Positions 40,325-54,877 of a DNA stretch of 54,992 bases are shown here, in pieces. Position numbers and translations under genes: made by a program. Below the pieces are notes generated by a model. It was not told where the DNA came from and did no database searches. It saw nothing but the letters and a program-made list of their open reading frames with translations. Numbering within the stretch: position 1 is the first letter of the stretch; every line of letters begins with the position of its first letter. This stretch comes from Verrucomicrobiaceae bacterium E54 (GTDB taxonomy: Bacteria > Verrucomicrobiota > Verrucomicrobiia > Verrucomicrobiales > Akkermansiaceae): NCBI GenBank assembly GCA_022548915.1, contig JAKZES010000036.1, positions 1 through 54,992 of the forward strand, written 5' to 3'.

Positions 40325-40693
40325 CTACCCATCTGTGAAGGTCAGAATTTCACTTCCAGACTCAGGTGCTACGGTCCCAGTTGCCATTGGTGACCACCTT
40401 CCGTCCCTTTGAAGGACACTGGCAACAAACTTTGTAAAATCCTCGACTCCAACAAAAAGGAGGTCGTCCCCGCTTGAGATAGTGGAGGTCTTGTCCCCAA
40501 TCTGAAACTTTAGATCAACGGAGGATCTGTTTTTGACGAGCACGTCGCCGGTTGGCGAAGAAGGAGCCGGGTCTAGCCGCGCCTGTGCCCTTAGCAATCC
40601 ATGATCCACTCCGCCATCGACATCCACCTCAAATCTCTTGCAAGAAGCGACAACCAAAAAGAGAGCGAGTATGTAGGAAAACTCAACCTTCAT
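40325..40693 (-). CDS. Small putative lipoprotein, candidate immunity protein
   Basis: This 122-residue protein starts at ATG 40693, only 4 bp after the stop of the recombinase-RHS gene. The N-terminus MKVEFSYILALFLVVASCKR is a signal with a lipobox (VVASC). No family is recognised. Base composition is lower in GC than the surrounding genes and matches the RHS tip upstream. Small, unique genes directly downstream of an RHS tip are typically immunity genes; that role is inferred from position only. Confidence 0.55.
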   Translation of the reverse strand: MKVEFSYILALFLVVASCKRFEVDVDGGVDHGLLRAQARLDPAPSSPTGDVLVKNRSSVDLKFQIGDKTSTISSGDDLLFVGVEDFTKFVASVLQRDGRWSPMATGTVAPESGSEILTFTDG

Positions 40694-40697
40694 CGGT

Positions 40698-42674
40698 TCA
40701 GAATTGAAAACACCATGATTTGCCCATCTGCCGAACGAATCGATACGTCACAACACGACGTGTCCGTTTCCAAAGCGCACGATCAATCGCGTTTACCGAA
40801 GCTTGTCGGGCCTTTGCTTCGGCATTGCAGCGAAAGTCGAGCGTCCAAAACACCGCATCGTAACAATCCGTGCAGTTCGCTGAAGCTGCAGGCGCAGAGG
40901 CAGGCTGACAATAGTTTGTGTAGACACTTTTCACCCCTCCAGGAATGGCCCGACCAGTCGCTGAAAGAGTGCGGATGGTGATTTCACACCTGCCACAACC
41001 ATAACAGCAGCTGTAGAGACCGATGTAATCGACAAGATTTACCCCGTTATTGAGGTTGAACACGTATAGTGGCTCTTCACCTCGATTTGTGAGGTCCATC
41101 TCCTCAACAAGGCCTCCGACAGACAGATTAAATCCAAGCTCCTCGATGGGATCTCTTGATGGCCACCTTCCGGTCGCGGGGTTGTAATAGCGGTAACCGT
41201 AATACGTCACACGCATGCTTCGGTCGGCCTTGCCCATTTCGGGCAAGTCGCTAACGGTTAGAGAGATAGAGTTTGTGACTTCGCCTGCCGGGCTTGGTGG
41301 GCGTTTGGGGAGCCCGACCGGTCTGGCCGCGGGTGGGTCGTCCTCGGGCGGTGTCTGCGATGCCGGGACGGCGACGCGCTCCCGCTCCGGGGCGGGTGGC
41401 GCGGGTCGCCTCTGAAGCATGGCCGACATGATGCGAGGCGTTAGCATTCGGGAGCGTTCGGGACCAGTCAATTCGGCCCCGGTGTCCGGTCCGGAAGGCT
41501 CGGTTGGCTCGGTTGGCTCGGTTGGCTCGGTTGGCTCGGTTGGCTCGGTTGGCTCGGTTGGTGGCGGGCAGGGCGGTGGCGGGCAGGGCGGCGGCGGGGC
41601 CTCGCCGGGTTCCTCTCCCTCGGGCGGGGCGGCGGGAAAGGTCGGCACGTGTCCCGGCCCCCCTCCCGGGCCGCCGTGGGGATGGCAGCGGGTGTGGATG
41701 TCGCGCAGGGCGTCGATGTGGACGTGGGTGTAGATCTGGGTGGTTTCCATGCGCTCGTGGCCGAGCATTTCCTGGACGTAACGGATGTCCGCCCCGCCGC
41801 GGTGCATGTCGGTGGCGCAGCTGTGGCGGAAGAGGTGGCAGGCGCCGGGCTTGTCGATGCCGCAGCGCTTCAGCTGCTGTTTTACCCAGTTGCCGAGCCA
41901 GGCGGGGGTGAGGCGGGTGCCGTAGCCGCTCAGGAACAGGGCGGTCTCGCCGGGCAGGTGGGCGAAGTGCGGGCGGACGTCCCGCAGGAAGAGCTCGAGC
42001 CATTCGGCGGCGCGCTCGCCGACGGGCAGCAGGCGGGCCTTGCCGAACTTGCCCTTGCGGACGTGCAAGGTGCGGGCGTGCGGGTCGTAGTCGCCGTGGT
42101 CGAGGCCGGTCATTTCGCTGCGGCGCAGGCCGGTGGCGTAGAAGAGTTCGAGGATGGCGCGGTCGCGCAGGCCGAAGGGGCTGGTGAGGTCAGGCAGGGC
42201 GAGGAGCGCCTCGATTTCGGCGGGAGCGAGGGATTTGGGGAGTTTGCGGGCCTGCTTGCGGGGCAGGTCGAGGTCGGCGGCGGGATTGGCGGGGATATGG
42301 CCGTCGCGGCAAAGACGGGCGAAGAAGCGGCGGACGCAGCCGAGGCGGGCAAGCTGGGTGTTGATGCCGAGCGCCTGGCCGGTGCGGGGGCTGCGGTAGC
42401 GGTGGAGGAAGAGTTGGTAGTCTTCGAGGTGGGCGCGGGTGAGGGCGGCGGGGTCGTGGAGGCGCTCGGCGGCGGCCCATTGGCTGAACTGCCGCAGCGC
42501 CCAGCGGTGGGTGTCGATGGTGGCTGCGGAGCGGTTGAGGGCGGCGAGGCGGTCGAGGAAGTGTTCGACCTGAGCGGCGATGCCACGAGGTGTGGCGGGC
42601 GGAGGCGCGGGGCGTCCGCCCTTGGTTCTGCCCTGCATGCCGTGGAGATTGCGGAGTCCGGGTTTTCCTGCCAT
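40698..42674 (-). CDS. Tyrosine recombinase fused to an RHS core and tip domain
   Basis: ATG 42674 gives 658 residues; the frame opens to ATG 42764 (688 residues, numbering used here). Residues ~60-360 are a complete XerC/D-like recombinase. An N-terminal SAM-like domain (VEHFLDRLAALNRSAATIDT) precedes catalytic R214 (TGLRRSEM), K237/K239, H310-R313 (HLFRHSCATDM), H336 (EMLGHERMETT) and Y345 (QIYTHVHI). Residues ~364-500 are a Pro-rich linker with seven Thr-Glu-Pro units. Residues ~519-583 are an RHS core (VTYYGYRYYNPATGRWPSRD, then PLYVFNLNNGVNLVDYIGL). Residues 584-688 are a Cys-rich tip with CCYGCGRC. GC content falls in the RHS part. No stop or frame break separates the parts. Confidence 0.85.
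   Translation of the reverse strand: MAGKPGLRNLHGMQGRTKGGRPAPPPATPRGIAAQVEHFLDRLAALNRSAATIDTHRWALRQFSQWAAAERLHDPAALTRAHLEDYQLFLHRYRSPRTGQALGINTQLARLGCVRRFFARLCRDGHIPANPAADLDLPRKQARKLPKSLAPAEIEALLALPDLTSPFGLRDRAILELFYATGLRRSEMTGLDHGDYDPHARTLHVRKGKFGKARLLPVGERAAEWLELFLRDVRPHFAHLPGETALFLSGYGTRLTPAWLGNWVKQQLKRCGIDKPGACHLFRHSCATDMHRGGADIRYVQEMLGHERMETTQIYTHVHIDALRDIHTRCHPHGGPGGGPGHVPTFPAAPPEGEEPGEAPPPPCPPPPCPPPTEPTEPTEPTEPTEPTEPTEPSGPDTGAELTGPERSRMLTPRIMSAMLQRRPAPPAPERERVAVPASQTPPEDDPPAARPVGLPKRPPSPAGEVTNSISLTVSDLPEMGKADRSMRVTYYGYRYYNPATGRWPSRDPIEELGFNLSVGGLVEEMDLTNRGEEPLYVFNLNNGVNLVDYIGLYSCCYGCGRCEITIRTLSATGRAIPGGVKSVYTNYCQPASAPAASANCTDCYDAVFWTLDFRCNAEAKARQASVNAIDRALWKRTRRVVTYRFVRQMGKSWCFQF
41497..41559. 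repeat. 9-bp tandem repeat (GGCTCGGTT) x7
   Basis: Seven perfect 9-bp units lie within the linker of the recombinase-RHS gene and encode (Thr-Glu-Pro)7 on the minus strand. Because the unit is a multiple of three, copy-number changes would alter linker length without breaking the frame. Confidence 0.95.
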
Positions 42675-42871
42675 GGCCGAAGGCATCGATGCCGTGAATG
42701 CGCATGCCAAGACTGATTGCTGGACGGTGACAAAGATGACACGAAATGATTGCTTCCATGCCATGCTTTATCCTTGTGTCTTGAAGAAGGGAAAGTGTAA
42801 CTCGATGAGGCTTGAACGTCTGAATTGATGATAAGTGATCGTTTGGCATCGACTTCAACGCTACGGCTGAA

Positions 42872-42914
<43 letters not shown>

Positions 42915-42945: not shown

Positions 42946-43638
42946 TTGAGGGCGACGTCCCTCGGACTGGTGGCGGGTGCCACCCTTGCGTTGGCGCTTG
43001 CGGGGAAGGCGGTGGCATCCGGGGTGAGGTTTGAGTCGAAGGTGGTGCGTCTCACGGTCCAGCCGGATGCGATCAATGAACCGCTTCAGTGGAAGTGCAC
43101 GAACGGCACCGAGATTCCGCTGGTGGTCGAGCGTTTCGAGCAAGGCTGTGGATGTCTTGCCGGAGCGGTCCGGGATGTGGAGATCGCTCCGGGGAAAACC
43201 GGAGCCATCGAGGCGAAGTTCACTCCCGGACCGTATCGGGGACTCGTCCGCAAGTCGTTGCATGTGAGGTTCGTGGGCTTCGAGAAGCCCGTCGAGCTGG
43301 TGGCCGAGGTGACGATTCCTTCGACCGTCGAGCTGTCAGCCCGGGATCTGCTCTGGGAGGCGGACGATCGCTCTTCCAAGGTCATCGAGATCGAGGCGGG
43401 CACGAAGACCGACTTTCGGATCACCGGGCTGGTCGGCGTGGAGGAAAGTCAGTTCAAGCTGGAGCAGGAAATCCTTGTCGCCGGACGCCATTACCGGTTG
43501 AGCCTGACCCCTCAGGATGGGGTATCGCCCGGGCATCATGTGCTCCAGGTGCGCACCGACAGCCCGGATCGCCGCGATCAGGTGCTGGCCGTCTTTCTCA
43601 AGGTGGAAGCTCCCTCCGGAAAGGAGGGTGCGTCGTGA
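42946..43638 (+). CDS. Exported DUF1573-like protein
   Basis: This 230-residue protein starts at TTG 42946 with a signal sequence (LGLVAGATLALALAGKAVAS). The motif FEQGCGCLAGAVRDVEIAPG then GAIEAKFTPG is that of DUF1573 proteins (CGC...pG..g.I...f). These fold as Ig-like/ASPM-SPD-2-Hydin domains in exported proteins. Function is unknown. It is coupled by a GTGA overlap to the membrane HEAT protein and heads the surface-protein locus. Confidence 0.75.
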   Translation: MRATSLGLVAGATLALALAGKAVASGVRFESKVVRLTVQPDAINEPLQWKCTNGTEIPLVVERFEQGCGCLAGAVRDVEIAPGKTGAIEAKFTPGPYRGLVRKSLHVRFVGFEKPVELVAEVTIPSTVELSARDLLWEADDRSSKVIEIEAGTKTDFRITGLVGVEESQFKLEQEILVAGRHYRLSLTPQDGVSPGHHVLQVRTDSPDRRDQVLAVFLKVEAPSGKEGAS

Positions 43639-44617: not shown

Positions 44618-47600
44618 ATGAAATACCGCCCGATGATCGCCGCCCTGCTCGCAGGTGGCCAGATGTCACTTTGCACCATCGCCCACGCGACCATCACGGC
44701 GGACGGGAATGCATCGTGGACGCGCACCAATTCCCCCGGGACGTATGATGCTTCGGCTTCCGACAAGCTGGTGGTCGTCGTCTCCGGCGAGCACAATTTT
44801 TCCGGGAATCTAACAGGAGACTGCACGGGAGTCACCTACAACGGGCAAGCCTTGACGCTTGGCGTCAAGCAACTGCCTGTGGCCATCGGCTCGGGTGGCC
44901 ACGGTCAGACCCATTCGTCGGTTTGGTATCTCGATGATCCGGGCAACCATTCCGGAGCCGGCACCATCAACGTCACCTGCGTCGGCAACAACTGGGTTGC
45001 CACCGCGATCGGACTTTCCGGCACGGCCTCGGGGATTGGCTCGACCGCCAAGGTCTCGGCCGCCTCGACGGTCCCGCTGGGGACCTCGGACTACGGCTCG
45101 ATGGTCATCTCGGCCCTCGGCATGGGAGGAAACGGCAACACCGCAACCCCCTTGCCGGGGGTGACGGCGAATTCCCCCTCGCAGGCGGTCACGCTTGCCG
45201 GCATTCGCATCTCGACCTGGGCCGGGCACGCGGTGGCGGCCTCGACCATCAACTACGTGTCGTCCAACAACTTCGGTTTCAACACCGCGAAAACGGATGT
45301 CACCACGGTTGCGGCGGAGTTCAAGGCGGCGAACCCGCCGGTTCCGGTGGGACCGGTCCCGACGGCGCTGGATGTCGTGCCGGGCGAGTCGGTCATGCTG
45401 ACGTGGACCAACCTGCTGCCCGGCTCCGGGAACGACGTGTGGGTGGATGTCTGGATCGGCCCCGATGCCAACAGCCTCGTCAAGCTCGTCGATGCGGATC
45501 CGGATGGTCTGAACCTCACCTCGTTCCTCTACACGGCTCCATCCGAGGGGACTTATCACGGCCGGATCGATTCCTACCTGATGGGCTCGCCCACCGGCAC
45601 GCCGCATCAAGGTGAACCTTTTACCTTCGAGGTCAGTGACGAGGGCATCCTGGTCGAGACCTGGCTCGGATTGCGACCTCTCTCCTCGCTCGAACTTCTC
45701 CAGCAGGAAGGCATCTCGCTTCGCTCTCCGGATCAAGCGAGCCGGGTGGTCGCCTCCGGCGTGGCCGGTGTCGCCGCGCCCGCCGGTGTGAGAATCCGGG
45801 GACTGCTCACTCCGGACGTCACGGGCGACTATCTCTTCCATGTGGCCGGATCGCAGAACGCCGCGCTGTGGCTTTCCGCGGATGACTCGCGGTTCGGCAA
45901 GCAGCGCATCGCGTGGAATCTGGGACCGACCGATCCCCAGGAGTGGGACAAATTCGGCACGCAAACCTCCGCTGCCATCCCCCTCCAGGCCGGGGTCTCC
46001 TACTACATCGAGGCCCAGCTCATGAATGGCGCGGGAATCGGGCACCTCGACCTCGGCTGGACCCCGCCCGGCGGATCCTCACCGGAGTCGATCCCCACCA
46101 GCGCCCTGAGCTACCCGGTGGTCGATTCCGACGACCTGAATGACAACAACCTTCCCGACTCCTGGGAGGCATCGACCGGACTTGATCAGTCCGGCCTGCC
46201 CGGCGCCCTGTCCCAGTATGGCGACCCGGATCAGGACGGCATCCCCAACCTCGCCGAGTATGCCTACAACTCCGACCCCCTGGCCGCCGAAGATCTCGGC
46301 AACGGCATCACGCGGGAAACCTGGACCGCCGATGGCATCTCCGGCGGGGCGGTGTCCGTGCTGACCTCCAGTCCGATCTTCCACGACCTCCCGAATGAAA
46401 CCATCCACGCGCCGGGCGTGGATGACGCGACCTTCGGGACCCAGTACGGCGTGCGATACCGTGGCTTCCTCGTGGCGCCGACGACCGGCCCCTACCGCTT
46501 CTGGATCACCGGCAATGACGAGGTCCAACTCTGGCTGGCCGATGCCACCGTGACGCCCCACGGCGAGTCGCAGGCCCGTGCGGATCGATTCGGCAAGCAC
46601 CTCGTGGCCTACAACGAAGCGATCAGCACCTCCTATGATTGGGGCGCTCCTTACGAGTTCGACCGCACGCTCTCCCAGCGCAGCGCGGTGACCCAGCTTG
46701 TGGCCGGCCAGCCGTACTACATCGAAGTCCTCCACAAGCAGGGCTGGAGCAATGCCAGCGGCGACGCCCACGTTTCCCTCGCCTGGCAGGCGCCAGGTCA
46801 GGCCCGGGAAGTCATTCCCGCCTCCGCCTTCCTCGGCAACCGTCCCAACCCCCTCGACCTCGATGACGACAACCTGCCGGACGCCTGGGAAAGCGCCAAC
46901 GGCCTCGACCCGGCGGACAATGGACTCACCGATTCGACCCAGGGGGAATACGGCGACCCCGACGGCGACGGCCTGACCAACCTGGAGGAATACCACGCGG
47001 GCACCGATCCGTTGAATGCCGACACCGATGGCGACGGACTGTCCGACTCGGCCGAGTTGCGCCGTTATGGGACCGATCCCCACATCTCCAACAACCTCGA
47101 CCCGGTCGCCATCACGCTGCCTCCGCTGGAGCAGTACACGGCCGCCACCGGTTCGTGGACCCTCAATGAAGACGACTCGCTCACCGCCGCCGAGCGCCGC
47201 GGCGAGATCACCTACAGCTTCGCCGTCACCGAAGCCGGCGTGCACGAGGTCATCGTGTCCGCCGCCCTGGTCACTCCCGATGACTGGATCACCCAGCCCA
47301 TGCCACTGGTCCTTTCGCTGGATGACGATCCGCCCTTCGCCCGCGAAACCCTGAATGCCCGAAACGGCGATCCCGAGGAAATGCGCGCCATCACGCCCTG
47401 GCTTCCGGTGGGCAACCACACGCTGACCATTCTCCACGACAACTTCCAAGCCGACCGCCGCCTTCGCATCGAATCAGTGGTCGTCAATCGCCTCGGAGGC
47501 ACCGACCTCGACCTCGATGGCATCCCCGACTGGGTCGAAACCAATGAAACCTCGGCCAACGCACTGACGCGCATTCCTTCCGCCAGCCGCACCTCGCCGG

Positions 47601-48619
47601 TGTCCATCGAGGGCATCACCCGTCAGCTCTCCAGCACCACGCTCAGCGTGCTCATGCCCGGAGCCCCAACGCCCAGCGACGTGCCGGTCAGCGAGTCCAT
47701 CAACGATTCCTTTTTCGCCGACGTGCCACTCTCCGCCGATGGCGACGTCACCCTCGACGCCAGCTTCCTCGGTGGGGTGGTCACCGAAAGCCACACCATC
47801 ACCTGGACGGCGACCAATCTCTTCGAGGGCTTCCCCGACGACACCCTGCACATCCGCGCAGGCGACTCACTCCTGCTGGATGCCTGGAGCGGCGCTTCCG
47901 CCGACGGCGGGGCCTTCACCGTCACCCTCGACGGCACCCTGCTCGAAGACGGCAACCAGAACACCAGCCACACCTCCGGGCAGCCTTTTGCAGCAGCCTT
48001 CGCCACCGCAGGGAGCTATAGCCTGGTGGCCACCCACGACGGCCAGACCGCGACGGTCACGCTGGAAGTCCACACCGCCGACTTCGGCGCATCGCACCTC
48101 GTCATGGCCCATCTTGTTCGGGAATGGACACCGACCGTCCTCGGGCCCGTCGCCCTGATTGAGGCCGACGACGCGGTCATCTTCACCGAAACCACGCCCG
48201 ATCCGCAGGTCGATCCGCGCCGTTTCAACGTCCAGGTCGATACCGCCGGAAACCGTTATGTGATCGCCCGGCTTCCGGGCGACATCGACGGTGCTCCCTC
48301 CGCCATCCTCGCCCGCGGCACCGTCCACGGCTTCGATGTCGCCCGGGTCGATCAGACCCGGGATGCCCGGATCGTCCACCGTTACGACGACGGCACCTGG
48401 CTCATGCGCAGCACCGTGGTGGCAGTCAATTTGCCGGCGGGGATCATCATCCGGATGACGACCTTCGCCCAGGGAGCCCTCTTCACCAACGGCTCCACCA
48501 TTCTTGATCTGCGGGCCGAGGACTTCGACGCCAACGGCATCGCTCATGTTTACTACGAATGGACGGGGACAGGCGATCCGACCCTGTGCCACCGGACCCA
48601 GCTCTTCATCGAACCATGA
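44618..48619 (+). CDS. Large secreted PA14-domain surface protein
   Basis: This 1333-residue protein starts at ATG 44618 with a signal peptide (MIAALLAGGQMSLCTIAHAT). Residues ~25-235 are a beta-rich N-terminal domain. Two PA14 domains follow at ~340-485 (VRIRGLLTPDVTGDYLFHVA) and ~561-737 (VRYRGFLVAPTTGPYRFWIT). Each is followed by thrombospondin type 3-like calcium motifs (DPDQDGIPNLAEYAYNSDP; DPDGDGLTNLEEYHAGTDP; DTDGDGLSDSAEL). The remaining ~500 residues are beta-rich. PA14 domains bind glycans. Its stop abuts the RHS gene and both share a similar leader, so it is probably co-expressed with the RHS protein as an adhesin or delivery partner. Confidence 0.85.
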   Translation: MKYRPMIAALLAGGQMSLCTIAHATITADGNASWTRTNSPGTYDASASDKLVVVVSGEHNFSGNLTGDCTGVTYNGQALTLGVKQLPVAIGSGGHGQTHSSVWYLDDPGNHSGAGTINVTCVGNNWVATAIGLSGTASGIGSTAKVSAASTVPLGTSDYGSMVISALGMGGNGNTATPLPGVTANSPSQAVTLAGIRISTWAGHAVAASTINYVSSNNFGFNTAKTDVTTVAAEFKAANPPVPVGPVPTALDVVPGESVMLTWTNLLPGSGNDVWVDVWIGPDANSLVKLVDADPDGLNLTSFLYTAPSEGTYHGRIDSYLMGSPTGTPHQGEPFTFEVSDEGILVETWLGLRPLSSLELLQQEGISLRSPDQASRVVASGVAGVAAPAGVRIRGLLTPDVTGDYLFHVAGSQNAALWLSADDSRFGKQRIAWNLGPTDPQEWDKFGTQTSAAIPLQAGVSYYIEAQLMNGAGIGHLDLGWTPPGGSSPESIPTSALSYPVVDSDDLNDNNLPDSWEASTGLDQSGLPGALSQYGDPDQDGIPNLAEYAYNSDPLAAEDLGNGITRETWTADGISGGAVSVLTSSPIFHDLPNETIHAPGVDDATFGTQYGVRYRGFLVAPTTGPYRFWITGNDEVQLWLADATVTPHGESQARADRFGKHLVAYNEAISTSYDWGAPYEFDRTLSQRSAVTQLVAGQPYYIEVLHKQGWSNASGDAHVSLAWQAPGQAREVIPASAFLGNRPNPLDLDDDNLPDAWESANGLDPADNGLTDSTQGEYGDPDGDGLTNLEEYHAGTDPLNADTDGDGLSDSAELRRYGTDPHISNNLDPVAITLPPLEQYTAATGSWTLNEDDSLTAAERRGEITYSFAVTEAGVHEVIVSAALVTPDDWITQPMPLVLSLDDDPPFARETLNARNGDPEEMRAITPWLPVGNHTLTILHDNFQADRRLRIESVVVNRLGGTDLDLDGIPDWVETNETSANALTRIPSASRTSPVSIEGITRQLSSTTLSVLMPGAPTPSDVPVSESINDSFFADVPLSADGDVTLDASFLGGVVTESHTITWTATNLFEGFPDDTLHIRAGDSLLLDAWSGASADGGAFTVTLDGTLLEDGNQNTSHTSGQPFAAAFATAGSYSLVATHDGQTATVTLEVHTADFGASHLVMAHLVREWTPTVLGPVALIEADDAVIFTETTPDPQVDPRRFNVQVDTAGNRYVIARLPGDIDGAPSAILARGTVHGFDVARVDQTRDARIVHRYDDGTWLMRSTVVAVNLPAGIIIRMTTFAQGALFTNGSTILDLRAEDFDANGIAHVYYEWTGTGDPTLCHRTQLFIEP

Positions 48620-48678
48620 AGTCCGCGCCTCGTTCTCTCAACAATCACATCTTCTTCACTCCCATCCGACCTTTCGCC

Positions 48679-51600
48679 ATGAAATCCGTCCGAACCCCGT
48701 TTCCGCGGTTCCACCGCCATGCTCTGGCTATCCTGGGTAGTGTGTTCCTCCTCCCCATCGCGGCTCAGGATACCGCCATCAGCGACAAGAACACCGATAA
48801 TCCAGGGCTCAAGCGGTGCTGCGAATGCCTTGAGTTGCTCATCAACGGTGAGGACCCCGCCGTGCCTGATGCACCTCGTGAGGTGACGAAAGATGAAAAT
48901 GGCAACTACAGCGTCTCAGTCACGGTTATTCACCGTGGACAGACCGGCGGCGATTGCGACTTCAAGATCGGTGTCAAGGTCTGGGCGGAGCCCGCAGACA
49001 CCGGTCGAGAGGATCAGCTTCGAACCAGGCCGCTTTCACCCGGGGAGACTTTTCCGGTGACGTTTACTTTCAGCGCGGACCAAGCTGAAGAGTACGACAA
49101 TTGGAAGATTCATCTGAGTTGTGAAGATGACTCGAGTTCTTCGACTCCCTCAAGCTCATCAGGGTCGGATAGCGGTATCTGTGAAAGCGGAAGTATTTCC
49201 CTGAAAGGCGGCTGCGATGCATGCACCGAAATGTGTCGATTCACAGGCGAGGTGCAGGCCAACCAGGACTCGTCAAACTTCACCGCGAGCATCCCCACCA
49301 CCAATTCCTCGGGCGGCATGGCGAGTGGCGAACTGGTCTTCCGAGCGCCGGATGCCACCTTCCCGGGACGCGCGGGCCTTTTTGCCAACGTGCCTTCGAG
49401 TGTGACCGTCACCAAAGTCGGCGGACTCATCACCAAGGTCGAGAACGGGATCGTCACCATGGACGTGGCCGATGTCTCAGGCGAAGACGCCTTCACCATC
49501 ACGCTGACCGACGACGCGACCAGCACCGTGATCCGCACCACCAAGTTGTCCGCGATCAATCCAGGCCCGGCGGGAGGGATTCGGATGGATTCGACGTTTG
49601 ATGGCCAAACGATCCGATACGAACAGACCGAGGACCAGAATGGCGCGCGGGTTCTGGCACGCGGGGCGGTCGACGGCCAGACCTTCAATGCTTTGAGGCG
49701 TGAGACCCTGCTTGTCACCGAGCCGACTCCGGGAACCCGTGTTTATGATCGCATGATCGAGGAGCGGGCATCTGCCACCAGTGGATGGAGCACCGTCTCC
49801 GACGTGCTGACCACCTTCGAGAATCAGATCCACGGATGGGTGAAAACCCAGGAGGTCATGGATCCTGACACGGCGGCTCTCACCTCGACATGGACCTACT
49901 ATCAGCCGGGAGAACCGACTGGCCCGGGCGCTTCCACGGAGGGACTCGGAGAGTTGAAGCAATACATCGGCTACGATGGGCGCCAGAGCTTCCACACCTA
50001 CGGGCTCAATACCAGTAGCGTCGCCACCCCCTACGCCGGCGACCCGGCCGGCCGCGTGACGACCACGACTCGGAACCCCGGCAGCCGCACGCGGACCGTG
50101 GTGACCACCGTGGGTGGGAACACCGTCTCGAAGACCGTTACCACCTTCGGCACGAACACCCGCACCACCTCCGTTTACACTTCCTCCACCGCGCCACCAT
50201 TGGTCACGACCACGGACTCGATGCCATCTGATGCCGACTTCGGAGGCATGCCGAAGCGAGTCCTCCGCCCCGACGGAACACTCGTCACCTACAGCTACTC
50301 CCGCAACGCCACGACCGGAGGCTACATCGCCACGATGGGGGAGGGTGCCCCCACCGACGGTGACGACACGACCGTATCCAGAGGCATGCGGACCATCACG
50401 ACCTACAACTCCCGGGGCACGGTCATCCTGCGCCAAACCGAAGCGATTGGTTTTGGCACCGCCGACGGCGAGACCTTCGACACGATCGCGGTCACGGCAG
50501 TGGACGATCTTGGCCGACCGCTTACGACCATGCACTATCCGACTTCCGTGACGATTCTGGATGATCAGGTCCTGGCCAGCGGTGCCAAGTGGACGACAAC
50601 CACCACCTACTCTTGCTGCGGCATCGAGTCGGAAACCGACAAATACGGCATCATCACCCGCCACGCCTACGACTCGCTGCGCCGCCGGATCAAGACCAAC
50701 CGCATGGGCGTGACGACCGAGACGGTTTACAATGGCCTGACCACCGAGACCCACCGCTACGCCGAAACGGTGAGCGGAAGCCTCTCGGCGACCTTGGTTG
50801 ATAACGACAGCAACCTGATCGGCAAGACCACACGCAACCTCGCAGGCACATCGATGACATCCTCCTCACCCGACCCGACCAGCGCGACGGCGGGTGATCT
50901 GGTCGATACGACAACCGTCACGACCTACCAGCCAGCGCCCGGACTCTCCAAACGGGTGGTCGTCACCGCCCCGGACAACTTCAGCCAGACCACCGACCAT
51001 TACCTCGACGGCCGCACCTACCAAACCACCGGCGACCTCTCGCCGGAAATGCGCTACGCCTACGCCGTGAATGCCACCGGCCAGGCCACCAGCCGATCCT
51101 ATCTGGATGGAGCCAATCTGCGTGAAACCACCACCACCCAGACGGACTGGGCCGGGCGCACCGTCGGCGTGACCTACGCGGATGCAGCCACTGCATCAAT
51201 GGAATACAATGCCAAGGGGCAGATGGAGAAGTCCGTCGATCCCGACAATGTCACCACCTTGATGATCTACGATGACCGCGGAGAGCGCACCATTACCGCC
51301 ATCGATCTCAACGCCAATGGCAGCATCGACCACGGCACCGACAGCATCAGCTTCAGCGACACCATTCCGGCTCTCGACGGCTCGGGCGATCCGGTCTGGC
51401 TCACCGTTTCGAAAGTCTGGCAGGACGGTGACACAAGCCCGACGGGCGGCACCGTCGTTTCGACCTCCACCCGCTCGCCCGACGGGCTCACCAGCACCAC
51501 TCAATCGGTTGGGGTCGCGACTCCTGCCACCAGTGTGACGACCCTCTCCGGAGGTGGCGCGTGGACCATTCTGGCGACCCATCCCGATGGTTCGAACACC

Positions 51601-54243
51601 CTTCAGACCTACAGCGGAGGGCTCGCCGCATCCACCGTCTCACGCGACAGCGCCGATGCGCCGGTCGAGTCGATCACCTACGGCTACGACAACCTCAATC
51701 GTCCCACCACCGCCACCCACTCCCGCACCGGAACCACCACCACCGCCTACCTCTCGGCCACCTCCGATGTGGTCGCCTCAGTGACCGATTCCGGCACCCG
51801 CACCACCGCCTTCATTTACGATGTTCGCGGGCGGCGCACCGAGGTCGATGCCCCGGACACCCTCATCGCCGGCGGCACCAGCACCAACATCACGATCACC
51901 GCCTACAACCCCGACAGCACCGTCCAGGAAACCACCGGCGCCCAGACCTATCGCGTCACCTACGAGTACGACTACGCCGACCGCCGCAAGACCCTGACCA
52001 CCTACGGCACGTCCACGGCCACCACCACCTGGACCTACAGCCCCACCCGCGGATTCATGACCCGCAAGGAATACGCCGACAGCGAAGGCACCGACTACAC
52101 CTACACCGCCGCCGGTCGCCTCGAAACCCGCACCTGGGCGAGGGGCGTCATCACCACCTACGGCTATGACGACGGCGGACGCCTCGTCTCCACCGACTAC
52201 TCCGACACCACCCCCGATCTGGTGATGACCTACGACGCCCTCAATCGCCAGAAGACCGTCACCCGCGGCGGCGTCCTCCATGCCAGCTACACATACGACC
52301 CCGCCGACCTCGTCCTCACATCCGAGCGCCAGCAGATCGACACCCTCAACCGCACCATTGAACGCGCCTACGACATCTATCAGCGTCCTACCGGCTACAC
52401 CTTCGGCACCCCTGCCAGTGGCACGACCGTCCCGGTCGTGAATGTGGAAGGCAGTTCCACCTGGACCCGTGATTCCGCCGGACGCCTCGCCACCGTCACC
52501 GACGGCAGCAACGCGTTCACGTATGGCTACACCTACGAAGTCAACGGAGCCGGAAACCATCAAGGAGCCACCGCCGGCACCCTCTTCGAATCCACCATGC
52601 CCTTCACCCTCGATGGTCCCAAAGTCGACACCGCCCTCGAATACGACACCACCCGCAACGCCCTGCTCGGCCGCACCAACACCTACCCCGGAGGCAGTGG
52701 CACCCTCTCCGACTTCGCCTACAGCGTCAACGCCATCGGCCAGCGCGACGGACTGACCACCACCGGCGACGCCTTTTCCACCGGCCTCGACTGGAATTGG
52801 GCCTACAACATGCGCGGCGAGCTGGTGCAGGCCGACGATCAATCCACCGCTGGCAATGACCGGGCTTACGAGTTCGACGGCATCGGCAACCGCAAGAAGA
52901 CCGTGGACGGCCTCCTCGGCGACCTCCCCACCACCGACAACTGGGCCGCCAACAGCCTCAACCAGTACACCGCCGTCTCCGGCTACACCCCCACTCCCGT
53001 CCACGACGACGACGGCAACCTCACCTCCGGCCCGCTGCCCGCGGCACCGAGCGCCACCTCCACCATGGTCTGGGACGGCGAGAACCGCCTTATCTCGGCG
53101 ACCGTTGGCACGACCACCACGACCTACACCTATGACCACCTCAGCCGCCTGACCTCCGCGACGACCGGCGGCACCACCGTGCGCTACCTCTACGACGGCT
53201 GGAACCGCATCGCCGAATACAACGGCACCACCCAGATCGCCGCCTACCTCTGGGGTCTCGACCTCAGCGGCACGCCGCAAGGCGCAGGCGGCGTCGGCGG
53301 CCTGCTGGCGATTTCCGCCATTGCAAGCGGCTCGGTTACGGATACCTTCTACCCTGCCTACGATGGCAATGGCAACGTGAGCGAATACGTCAATGCAGCG
53401 GGCGCGGAAGTCGCCCATTTCGAATACGACCCCTTCGGCAACTTGACGCTGGATGCCGAGATGAACGCGGCCTCGTTCCCGTATCGCTTCTCCACCAAGC
53501 CTCAAGACGGAGTAACTGGACTTTATTACTACGGTTACCGTTGGTATGATCCCGTGACCGGCAAGTGGCCATCTAGGGATCCGATTGGGGAACGGGGTGG
53601 TGTGAACCTGTATGGATTTGCCTACAATTCCCCATCCTTCTCGGTAGATATTCTGGGACTATGTAAGTTTGTGGGTTGGGGGTATGAGCCTCTTGACTCG
53701 GAGTCCTTTGATGATGCGGAGCTGGAAAGGCTCAAGCGGCGGCTTGGGGAAGCTGCTGATGACGCCGGCTTATCCGAGGAGATTGGCGGCGAGCTGATGG
53801 ATCGATTTGAGAAGGCGATCGAGAAGGCAAGAGAGTCGAACCCTCGGAAATACCGCCCGCGTTTGCCGACAGCTCAAGAAATTCTCCAAGGTTTTATCGA
53901 AGGAGCCCTTGAGAATGCGGGCAAGGATGCTGAGAATATGGCTCGCGAGGTTCTTAAAGAGTATAGAGACGAACTTGAGGATCACAAAGATGCTCTCCTT
54001 AAGCCTTCTGCTAAGATATACCTCAGGATTACTGTCAAGTGTTGCATTGATGAGGGCGGCGGGAAGCCGATTTACGGCCCTGAAGAGAGCGTATACTTTG
54101 GTAGGCGGCTATATGTTCGATATGACGGATGGACTGAGGCCGAAATGACACGGAATCCACGACCGCTACTTGATAAAGAAGGATTAGCATTCAAGTGGGC
54201 TTGTTACTATAAGTGCGGCCACGTTAAGCCGAATACGCGGTGA
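48679..54243 (+). CDS. RHS/YD-repeat polymorphic toxin-like protein
   Basis: ATG 48679 gives 1854 residues with a signal peptide (LAILGSVFLLPIAAQ); ATG 48616, overlapping the previous stop, is the alternative. A Cys-containing N-terminal region (~400 residues) precedes many YD/RHS repeats (e.g. YGYDNLNRPTTATHS, YDDGGRLVSTDYSD, WDGENRLISATVG). The RHS-associated core is YDPFGNLTLDAEMNAASFPY ... LYYYGYRWYDPVTGKWPSRD, ending VDILGL. The last ~195 residues are a unique tip, low in GC, helix-rich then Cys-containing (VKCCIDEGG, CYYKCGHVK), not matching a toxin family I know. RHS shells enclose and release C-terminal toxins. The next gene is a candidate immunity gene. Confidence 0.88.
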   Translation: MKSVRTPFPRFHRHALAILGSVFLLPIAAQDTAISDKNTDNPGLKRCCECLELLINGEDPAVPDAPREVTKDENGNYSVSVTVIHRGQTGGDCDFKIGVKVWAEPADTGREDQLRTRPLSPGETFPVTFTFSADQAEEYDNWKIHLSCEDDSSSSTPSSSSGSDSGICESGSISLKGGCDACTEMCRFTGEVQANQDSSNFTASIPTTNSSGGMASGELVFRAPDATFPGRAGLFANVPSSVTVTKVGGLITKVENGIVTMDVADVSGEDAFTITLTDDATSTVIRTTKLSAINPGPAGGIRMDSTFDGQTIRYEQTEDQNGARVLARGAVDGQTFNALRRETLLVTEPTPGTRVYDRMIEERASATSGWSTVSDVLTTFENQIHGWVKTQEVMDPDTAALTSTWTYYQPGEPTGPGASTEGLGELKQYIGYDGRQSFHTYGLNTSSVATPYAGDPAGRVTTTTRNPGSRTRTVVTTVGGNTVSKTVTTFGTNTRTTSVYTSSTAPPLVTTTDSMPSDADFGGMPKRVLRPDGTLVTYSYSRNATTGGYIATMGEGAPTDGDDTTVSRGMRTITTYNSRGTVILRQTEAIGFGTADGETFDTIAVTAVDDLGRPLTTMHYPTSVTILDDQVLASGAKWTTTTTYSCCGIESETDKYGIITRHAYDSLRRRIKTNRMGVTTETVYNGLTTETHRYAETVSGSLSATLVDNDSNLIGKTTRNLAGTSMTSSSPDPTSATAGDLVDTTTVTTYQPAPGLSKRVVVTAPDNFSQTTDHYLDGRTYQTTGDLSPEMRYAYAVNATGQATSRSYLDGANLRETTTTQTDWAGRTVGVTYADAATASMEYNAKGQMEKSVDPDNVTTLMIYDDRGERTITAIDLNANGSIDHGTDSISFSDTIPALDGSGDPVWLTVSKVWQDGDTSPTGGTVVSTSTRSPDGLTSTTQSVGVATPATSVTTLSGGGAWTILATHPDGSNTLQTYSGGLAASTVSRDSADAPVESITYGYDNLNRPTTATHSRTGTTTTAYLSATSDVVASVTDSGTRTTAFIYDVRGRRTEVDAPDTLIAGGTSTNITITAYNPDSTVQETTGAQTYRVTYEYDYADRRKTLTTYGTSTATTTWTYSPTRGFMTRKEYADSEGTDYTYTAAGRLETRTWARGVITTYGYDDGGRLVSTDYSDTTPDLVMTYDALNRQKTVTRGGVLHASYTYDPADLVLTSERQQIDTLNRTIERAYDIYQRPTGYTFGTPASGTTVPVVNVEGSSTWTRDSAGRLATVTDGSNAFTYGYTYEVNGAGNHQGATAGTLFESTMPFTLDGPKVDTALEYDTTRNALLGRTNTYPGGSGTLSDFAYSVNAIGQRDGLTTTGDAFSTGLDWNWAYNMRGELVQADDQSTAGNDRAYEFDGIGNRKKTVDGLLGDLPTTDNWAANSLNQYTAVSGYTPTPVHDDDGNLTSGPLPAAPSATSTMVWDGENRLISATVGTTTTTYTYDHLSRLTSATTGGTTVRYLYDGWNRIAEYNGTTQIAAYLWGLDLSGTPQGAGGVGGLLAISAIASGSVTDTFYPAYDGNGNVSEYVNAAGAEVAHFEYDPFGNLTLDAEMNAASFPYRFSTKPQDGVTGLYYYGYRWYDPVTGKWPSRDPIGERGGVNLYGFAYNSPSFSVDILGLCKFVGWGYEPLDSESFDDAELERLKRRLGEAADDAGLSEEIGGELMDRFEKAIEKARESNPRKYRPRLPTAQEILQGFIEGALENAGKDAENMAREVLKEYRDELEDHKDALLKPSAKIYLRITVKCCIDEGGGKPIYGPEESVYFGRRLYVRYDGWTEAEMTRNPRPLLDKEGLAFKWACYYKCGHVKPNTR

Positions 54244-54265: not shown

Positions 54266-54877
54266 ATGAGGCTTGCAAAGATTATACTGGTTGCCTTGCT
54301 GGTCGGCATCGTTGGTGTTGTTGCGGTTACATTTGGTTTGAAGATTGGCGGAAAACCAGAGCCCGAACGCTCTATTTTGACGGTCCACAAGAGCAAGTCG
54401 AAGGCGCTGGTTCTGGAAGGGGAGCGGTCATTTCAAATTCATGCATCCGATTGGGGTGCCCTTGAGGTCGCTCTATCTATCGAAAGGCATGGTAGCAGGA
54501 TCACTCTAGCTGGAAATGGGAGGGGATTGATGGAGATTACAAGGCTGAGCAACTTGGAAATTCCTCTTGATGAAAAGGGTTACTGGGATGCTATGTTGGG
54601 TGTTGGTGATGATCGAGGAGGTCGGGTGACCGCGCCCGAGATTGCCCGGCATCATTTTCCTGGGATAGTTTGGGCGAAGCACTTCCAGGGGAGGTATATT
54701 TCCGGATATATCTTGGGTTTTGAAAATGGAGATGTTTCAGGACGCCTATGGTACTACTACGAAAAATACTATGGTGACTTTAGTTTTCAACCCAATTCTC
54801 AGGAGCAAAAGCCGAACGCTGCGATCGCAGCCGATTTTCTGGAGGTCTTGGATAAGTCTAAGATTCGGCTGCGTTGA
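54266..54877 (+). CDS. Membrane-anchored candidate immunity protein
   Basis: This 203-residue protein starts at ATG 54266, 22 bp after the RHS stop. One N-terminal membrane segment (ILVALLVGIVGVVAVTFGL) is followed by a soluble domain (LEVALSIERHGSRITLAGNG, WAKHFQGRYISGYILGFENG). No family is recognised. GC content is as low as in the RHS tip and unlike the genes upstream, so tip and gene probably arrived together. The immunity role is inferred from position. Confidence 0.6.
   Translation: MRLAKIILVALLVGIVGVVAVTFGLKIGGKPEPERSILTVHKSKSKALVLEGERSFQIHASDWGALEVALSIERHGSRITLAGNGRGLMEITRLSNLEIPLDEKGYWDAMLGVGDDRGGRVTAPEIARHHFPGIVWAKHFQGRYISGYILGFENGDVSGRLWYYYEKYYGDFSFQPNSQEQKPNAAIAADFLEVLDKSKIRLR

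Follow-up and report, generated by a model that had tools for sequence, protein, structure and literature searches.

Why does the gene of a tyrosine recombinase read on, without a stop codon, into the core and presumed toxin tip of an RHS protein? We investigated this question in Verrucomicrobiaceae bacterium E54 (phylum Verrucomicrobiota; GenBank assembly GCA_022548915.1), where such a gene lies on contig JAKZES010000036.1; the 54,992 nucleotides (nt) analyzed are called the window hereafter. Judging from the sequences compared below, this gene is probably the recombinase end of a dedicated site-specific system that switches the tips of RHS toxins in a shufflon- or integron-like manner.

The open reading frame (ORF) occupies the minus strand from an ATG at 42764 to 40698 (688 amino acids) and contains no internal stop, as an earlier note on this DNA had claimed without naming the strand, and the opposite (plus) strand of the same interval is interrupted by stops. 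The true start may lie downstream of this ATG; the family-conserved start appears closer to M31 (42674) or M43 (42638). Residues 178–348 match PF00589 (E = 1.7e-34), which places the protein among the tyrosine recombinases. The catalytic residues named in the earlier note (R214, H310, R313, H336, and Y345) were confirmed, and K239 was added to them; an alignment of 121 sequences shows no variation at R214, K239, H310, R313, or H336, and 120 of them have Y345, with a gap in the remaining row. The fusion stays under the NCBIfam cut-offs for XerC/XerD (TIGR02225, 223.9 against 329.6 bits; TIGR02224, 212.1 against 335.15 bits) and under that of its best NCBIfam model, PRK01287 (317.4 against 371 bits). 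The RHS core, YGYRYYNPATGRWPSRD, begins at residue 522 (window position 41201); TIGR03696 (Rhs_assc_core) scores 32.1 bits over residues 513–547, against a cut-off of 32.5, and 34.2 bits, above this cut-off, in the genome search. The fusion protein is thus a tyrosine recombinase by membership and a borderline RHS core protein. It has no YD-repeat shell, whereas the neighboring rhs gene (48559–54243) has one, and it does not qualify as an RHS polymorphic toxin itself.

Recombinase and core are joined by a proline-rich linker with a Thr-Glu-Pro (TEP) repeat (a 9-nt tandem repeat of 7.2 copies). The guanine-plus-cytosine (GC) content is 0.707 in both the recombinase and the linker and 0.514 in the core and tip. 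Hence, the drop in GC content that the earlier note had seen between the two parts is real, but it sits at the core and not at the recombinase/linker border.

The fusion is recurrent. A whole-protein database search yielded 418 proteins at E ≤ 1e-3 among 7993 scored candidates, and an RHS core stands behind the recombinase in 119 of the best 120 matches listed, under a length filter (378–1204 residues) that favors fused forms. A second search with the recombinase part alone, of whose 4297 matches the best 120 were listed, added 70 new proteins, 29 with the core (by a loose pattern) and 41 without it. Many of these 41 are on short contigs or apparently frame-shifted, and P0128, P0167, and P0188 are on contigs of more than 75 kb; shortened or broken family members exist. 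On the strength of the homologue searches, a one-off gene fusion or an assembly error was rejected. The earlier alternative, in which one integrase took up an orphan tip and read on into it, does not hold as a single event, given these counts and the single clade described below. Nor do homologues always end before the linker, which the earlier note had named as an outcome that would count against it: close relatives continue through it, and distant unfused cousins do end about 25–35 residues past the catalytic Tyr.

The genomic loci lead to the same picture. Among relatives of at least 57% identity with a resolved 3' end, a core and tip lie directly downstream in 13 of 13, in frame in 12 and behind a stop in one (G093); eight further relatives of this identity are cut off by contig ends (one duplicate of the window was removed). 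A same-strand core within 1.8 kb downstream was found in 13/13 rows at ≥57% identity, 5/12 at 44–57% (unfused), and 1/82 at <44%, counting rows with more than 230 aligned residues and no stops; many rows had flanks of 1.5 kb, and those with less than 600 nt were set aside as unresolved. In the 12 loci with an open linker, 55 of the 60 other frames of the linker contain stops, indicating that the open linker does not come free by chance. The linker repeat had earlier been taken as a sign that the joint has persisted; the TEP repeat itself is no proof of this, but the linker keeps its frame, and its end recurs before other cassettes in some relatives.

A 61-row tree groups the 12 fused rows with the 8 cut off by contig ends and the 1 interrupted row in a single clade (support 100/100); unfused core-adjacent rows stand beside it, and the outer forks are weaker (81/40 and 91/99). 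Judging from database records, the fused members appear to belong to Verrucomicrobiota, and matches at E ≤ 1e-80 occur in 29 of 260 genomes of the family of the window, unfused cousins included. A viral origin was considered and rejected: of 14 IMG/VR loci, one is close (L270, 71%), and the others are at 30–37%. The examined piece of L270 (IMGVR_UViG_3300037307_000908), from a contig filed as viral, ends with a fused recombinase–tip gene and then a second core–tip; this contig may be a bacterial stretch. As a separate observation, 10 of 190 listed recombinase proteins (P0120, P0148, P0151, P0158, P0159, P0165, P0167, P0168, P0183, and P0184) and two copies in G053 (L016:2422–2491 and L067:1943–2012) carry an insert at one and the same codon, where it separates VQE from MLGH immediately ahead of the catalytic Tyr. 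It is 70 nt long and frame-shifting in L016 and in frame in P0120, and is either a small repeat element with a single target or an off switch.

We compared 115 tips (the window included), which fall into 105 sequence clusters. Among 65 pairs with recombinase and linker at least 85% identical, related tips were found in 2; three recombinase pairs are 100% identical over 429–444 residues, yet their tips are unrelated. Conversely, in one case two recombinases of 62% identity carry tips that are 97% identical. Recombinase and tip assort freely, and, together with the recurrence of the fusion, this gives good support to the earlier proposal of a new architecture that possibly shuffles tips. In 38 pairs with similar linker ends, identity is 0.87–0.97 along the last 40 linker residues and 0.95 over core residues 1–8, and it drops to 0.17 and 0.09 deeper into the tip; the break lies in the 5' part of the core, which begins TACGG. 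The crossover could not be narrowed to a single exact base: sequences merge at TACGG in three assemblies (two bases earlier in G230), but close recombinase pairs share core residues 1–8. Some tips match known families (Ntox34, Ntox16, Colicin_M, and microbial transglutaminase) in a test of ten proteins, of which eight had been selected because of a precomputed hit. Among the loci examined, five tips on rhs shells or orphans resemble recombinase-borne tips (51, 43, 39, 32, and 30% identity). The tip of the window has two weak relatives besides itself among the 260 family genomes.

Where a contig carries both the recombinase and an rhs gene of the same core type, the two cores are inverted without exception (10/10): nine pairs are divergent (the window, L046, L166, L168, L169, L170, L171, L174, and L176) and one is convergent (L173). 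The probability of this is about 0.001 given random orientation and independent loci, and the loci are not fully independent (L169 and L174 come from one genome, G215, as does L095 in the core-matching test below). The geometry of a shufflon, that is, a recombinase beside inverted sites at a variable C-terminus, is present in all ten; the contig of L176 (G228) stops before the core of the recombinase. Loci with no rhs gene of this core in the examined piece were excluded from the count (G129:C62, G120:C28, G093:C109, G125:C48, G219:C38, G053:C101, G239:C198, G010:C8, G033:C5, G252:C191, G023:C7, and L270). In the window, the core codons of the rhs and recombinase genes form the longest inverted repeat found in a 17-kb region, with the copies 12.3 kb apart. 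This divergent rhs gene, overlooked in the earlier note, suggests the mechanism.

The paired cores also match each other as DNA. Over the first 63 nt of the rhs and recombinase cores in seven loci, mean identity is 84.6% for cores of the same locus and 71.5% for cores of different loci. Of all 5040 pairings, 2, counting the true one, reach this level; three of the seven loci come from one genome. In 6 of 10 loci, the two cores agree in all of their first 11 nt (permutation p about 1e-4). In addition, the first Tyr codon is TAC at 52 of 54 sites in fused-clade genomes and at 12 of 18 in comparison genomes (p = 0.002), or 9 of 15 (p = 0.0009) without G048, G056, and G114, comparison genomes with truncated orphan cores. 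A wider set (67/70) had included cousins and some G048 and G056 sites; the cleaned set consists of fused-clade genomes only. A preference for CCA at Pro14 was discarded as a mark of the recombinase, since comparison genomes show CCA too (5/6).

Some genomes hold more than two such sites. G235 carries six orphan core–tip cassettes, head to tail where several share a contig, and in front of each stands a 287-nt element (copies about 79–83% identical to one another) whose end falls exactly at TACGG. In G235, the linker of the recombinase shares the last 111–122 nt of this element, whose final 22 nt, CCATGCATGTGGCTTGCTACGG, are the same in six aligned rows and in a seventh copy. In 6 of 7 further genomes tested, there are repeated elements of 88–291 nt whose ends coincide with TACGG or lie no more than 3 nt from it. 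These genomes are G125 (281–291 nt, common to the recombinase linker), G053 (279 nt), G056 (148–187 nt), G129 (137–143 nt), G048 (88 nt), and the genome of the window (150 nt, on contigs C225 and C166, not common to the linker in the window). A second recombinase of G235 (38% identical) pairs with another left arm, ATACACTTT. Among unfused cousins, GCGTCGGGTGTG precedes TACGG in nine loci, exactly in seven and with one or two bases changed in L076 and L159; these include drafts filed as Verrucomicrobiales, Akkermansiaceae, Kiritimatiellae, and Deltaproteobacteria. Since this sequence stands in different reading frames in L068 and L077, it is kept as DNA. An attC-like hairpin site was also considered and rejected, with little covariation in the fold alignment (6 of 71 pairs changed on both sides).

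Three loci with orphan tips were noted besides. In L256 (G048:C1:1664000–1683000), part of a single-contig genome, a recombinase of 35% identity has five orphan core–tip cassettes next to it, which lie in both orientations. The genome of the window has a second recombinase (34% identical; L054, G000:C225:19107–21196), divergent beside an orphan core–tip. A further orphan there (L056, G000:C166:71181–71330) has 69 exact nt before TACGG in common with the C225 locus and then a different tip.

Contig ends in three drafts point to alternative junctions. In G013, G230, and G235, contigs span the complete segment, with a break at each of the two cores: their rhs ends lie 119, 119, and 141 nt, respectively, beyond the point where the rhs and recombinase sequences merge, and their recombinase ends stop 26, 11, and 11 nt after TACGG, still identical to the rhs core. 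Tip contig G230:C205 starts 2 nt before TACGG, and its overlap with the rhs end is exactly 119 nt long. Tip contig G235:C266 has its first base exactly at TACGG and 141 nt in common with the rhs end, and an overlap of the same length, 141 nt, links G235:C330 to the recombinase end. The values 119 and 141 coincide with k-mer sizes of MEGAHIT, a common metagenome assembler that may have been used for these drafts. Read from the form of the assemblies and not from reads, such breaks imply more than one predecessor per tip and more than one successor of the recombinase in the sample. Two further ends have no partner found: G125:C48 stops 9 nt past TACGG, and G228:C179 starts 114 nt before it. As a control, we inspected five contig starts near cores in comparison genomes (G085 C5, C50, and C12; G056 C1; G006 C21); cores were placed in three, at 249, 373, and 427 nt from the contig start and none at TACGG, and the pattern found no core in the other two.

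Based on these maps, we propose that the recombinase would act on sites composed of a left arm (linker end or cassette element) followed by the first RHS core codons (TACGG...). One site would lie in the divergent rhs gene and one at the linker end of the recombinase itself, with more before orphan cassettes in some relatives. Recombination between inverted sites would turn the intervening segment round and swap the tips, and, judging from the map, the promoters and N-termini of both genes would be kept. The rhs shell would thereby gain the tip from behind the recombinase, and its old tip would come to rest, still in frame, at the end of the recombinase gene. With sites in direct orientation, this reaction would remove or add cassettes. 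The unlike left arms of the rhs site and of the recombinase or cassette site may be comparable to attB and attP. The fused recombinase would be the catalyst and inversion its main reaction, and the fusion may serve for storage or for keeping a cassette in frame. A fuller version describes a switching and archiving system for toxin tips, an integron/shufflon hybrid whose recombinase frame ends in a recombination site, with each event arming the shell and storing the previous tip; this we hold tentatively, with slightly more doubt than belief.

Several observations weigh against tip switching of this kind. Close recombinase pairs also share the first core codons (0.95 over residues 1–8), so that the crossover may fall anywhere in the 5' part of the core. 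The rhs site carries a different left arm (ACTGGACTTTATTAC in the window), which leaves the two sites unlike, and the two cores of the window agree least of the seven loci (76%). The fused-clade loci of G129, G120, and G093 have no rhs partner in the examined piece, and that of G125 has a divergent rhs partner of another core type. In the test for repeats ending near TACGG, G093 showed no repeated left element, and the linker element of the window was not found before two orphans of its own draft genome. Displaced orphan tip arrays are reported elsewhere, with no recombinase named in the available parts of those papers (PMC6421346, PMC13183296). Mixed strains would explain the assembly breaks as well as flipping within one strain. 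In G235, the base after the fork leads to a second successor of the recombinase that differs from the present rhs tip; a simple two-state flip is thus insufficient, and a wider cassette shuffle or mixed strains would fit. An rhs junction with a second tip was found in none of the assemblies of G013, G230, and G235, partner contigs were found neither for the recombinase ends of G230 and G013 nor for the rhs end of G013, and the examined pieces of G125 and G228 showed no overlaps. The genomes examined are mostly drafts.

The recombinase might instead belong to an integrative element with the rhs core for an attachment site; in that case, the fusion would be a by-product of integration, in which the integrase at the edge of the element abuts a displaced core–tip. 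A DnaG-like primase (CHC2 and Toprim) directly upstream of the recombinase in four unfused cousins tested (L063, L065, L069, and L074) suggests descent from such an element, and these gene pairs suggest a family of mobile elements that may or may not carry RHS tips; directly downstream of the recombinase, L063 and L065 have a core–tip as well. In a Kiritimatiellae draft, L077:1240–4324 presents tandem partial rhs copies, a primase-sized ORF, the recombinase, and a core–tip on one strand with direct core repeats, a possible integrated form, and the unfused core-adjacent rows adjoin the fused clade in the tree at its weakly supported fork (81/40). However, fused loci with an rhs partner have a divergent operon and inverted, not direct, cores, and arrays with repeated left elements are not explained by integration alone. 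We consider integration unlikely as the present function; it is perhaps the ancestral state. Another account lets ordinary homologous recombination or illegitimate displacement swap tips at the conserved core, the recombinase being a passenger. Exchange of Salmonella rhs tips, over 522 bp at 95% identity, has been published without a recombinase in the available part of that paper (PMC3967940), displacement has been proposed, in the parts available, for other arrays (PMC5361080, PMC13183296), and some exchanges in our data seem to fall inside the core. Yet the shared stretch here is about 60–100 nt at 76–89%, the association with one recombinase clade is nearly exclusive, and left-arm DNA is retained despite a differing reading frame (L068 and L077), and we regard this account as quite unlikely.

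It is also conceivable that the fusion protein functions as such, with a toxin tip attached to the recombinase domain, for instance in the manner of an internal addiction module. This would agree with the linker being open in 12 of 13 resolved close relatives while its other frames hold stops, and with the tips that match the toxin families Ntox34, Ntox16, and Colicin_M; it sits poorly with the unfused cousins, with the stop-interrupted member (G093), and with tips that turn over on a conserved recombinase, and appears very unlikely to us. Lastly, many of the sources are metagenome contigs, which might suggest an artefact of assembly or annotation; with fused frames in 12 separate loci, three of them on contigs of 278–478 kb, and in the 119 of 120 listed proteins, that explanation is hardly credible.

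The features of the window are collected in the table below. Immunity genes usually sit right behind a toxin tip, and a candidate is found in this position behind both tips of the window. In two loci, the stretch that separates the divergent rhs operon from the recombinase contains short tandem repeats, with a 7-nt unit in the window and an 11-nt unit in L057 (9741–9839); they could control the expression of either flanking side.

Table. Features of the recombinase–RHS fusion gene and of the divergent rhs side, in window positions
Feature	Positions	Strand	Basis
122-aa lipoprotein-like ORF directly 3' of the tip, candidate immunity protein	40325..40693	minus	position
Cys-rich C-terminal tip, presumed toxin	40701..41123	minus	
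RHS core match (TIGR03696)	41124..41228	minus	
Proposed exchange site: left arm GCATGCGTGTGACGTAT, then TACGGTTACCG (first RHS core codons)	41191..41218	minus	function inferred
Proline-rich linker, residues 366–521, including the TEP repeat (41497..41561)	41202..41669	minus	
Tyrosine recombinase domain, residues 60–365	41670..42587	minus	PF00589, NCBIfam, alignment
N-terminal stretch	42588..42764	minus	inferred
7-nt tandem repeat CGGTCAG, 6.1 copies, between the divergent genes	42872..42914		
DUF1573 protein, first gene of the divergent rhs side	42946..43638	plus	
PA14/TSP3-repeat protein, upstream of rhs	44618..48619	plus	
Full-length RHS (YD-repeat) protein, divergent from the recombinase gene	48559..54243	plus	
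Core of the rhs gene, inverted-repeat partner of 41140..41204 (65 nt, 77%)	53527..53591	plus	
Tip of the rhs gene	53610..54243	plus	
ORF 3' of the rhs stop (its first Met is at 54266), candidate immunity protein for the rhs tip	54266..54877	plus	position

The rapid change of toxic tips in RHS and related weapons has been put down, in the available parts of the sources, to homologous or illegitimate recombination (PMC3967940, PMC5361080). A full-text literature search (titles and abstracts; most subscription journals lie outside its scope) yielded no account of a recombinase–RHS fusion, of recombinase-driven RHS tip switching, or of a repeated cassette element tied to a recombinase linker. If the tip-switching system proposed here is real, it would be, as far as this search goes, the first in which site-specific recombination exchanges the tips of polymorphic toxins. 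A recombinase clade tied to the RHS core offers a concrete enzyme, site, and geometry, which makes tip switching directly testable, and it may provide a tool for switching protein C-termini at a short DNA site.

By analogy, the nearest known systems would be shufflons, integrons, and the rAID arrays of Bacteroidales. Integrons combine a recombinase that has a platform site beside its gene with head-to-tail cassettes, each with a repeated site element. The system proposed here would resemble them in both respects, with a cassette array and its repeated element seen in G235 but not for the recombinase of the window in its own draft genome; its first cassette is read in frame from the recombinase, its score with the integron integrase model TIGR02249 is far under the cut-off (88.9 against 265 bits), and an attC-like fold is unsupported. 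In the R64-type shufflon (Rci and pilV), as described in the available part of the source, a tyrosine recombinase gene likewise lies beside inverted sites that swap the C-terminal part of a constant protein (PMC3414803); here, by contrast, the proposed system targets an RHS toxin through sites in RHS core codons, the recombinase frame continues into one of the alternative tips, tip-cassette arrays occur in some genomes, and inversion is predicted from geometry. The rAID loci, as far as the available text describes them, are arrays of orphan immunity genes (PMC12247911), whereas each cassette here starts with an RHS core and tip, so that these arrays do not belong to that class. In the rearrangement of orphan rhs tips in Salmonella, a constant shell likewise gains a new tip from an orphan cassette (PMC3967940), and arrays of displaced tips are known as well (PMC6421346, PMC13183296); these were explained by homologous recombination or displacement, and the available parts of those papers name no recombinase. 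Lastly, XerC/D-type recombinases have been noted beside the immunity arrays of polymorphic toxins in polyimmunity loci (Zhang et al. 2012; PMC3482391); the available part of that report describes them for immunity arrays, with neither a fusion nor a site in the RHS core, the two features that set the present recombinases apart.

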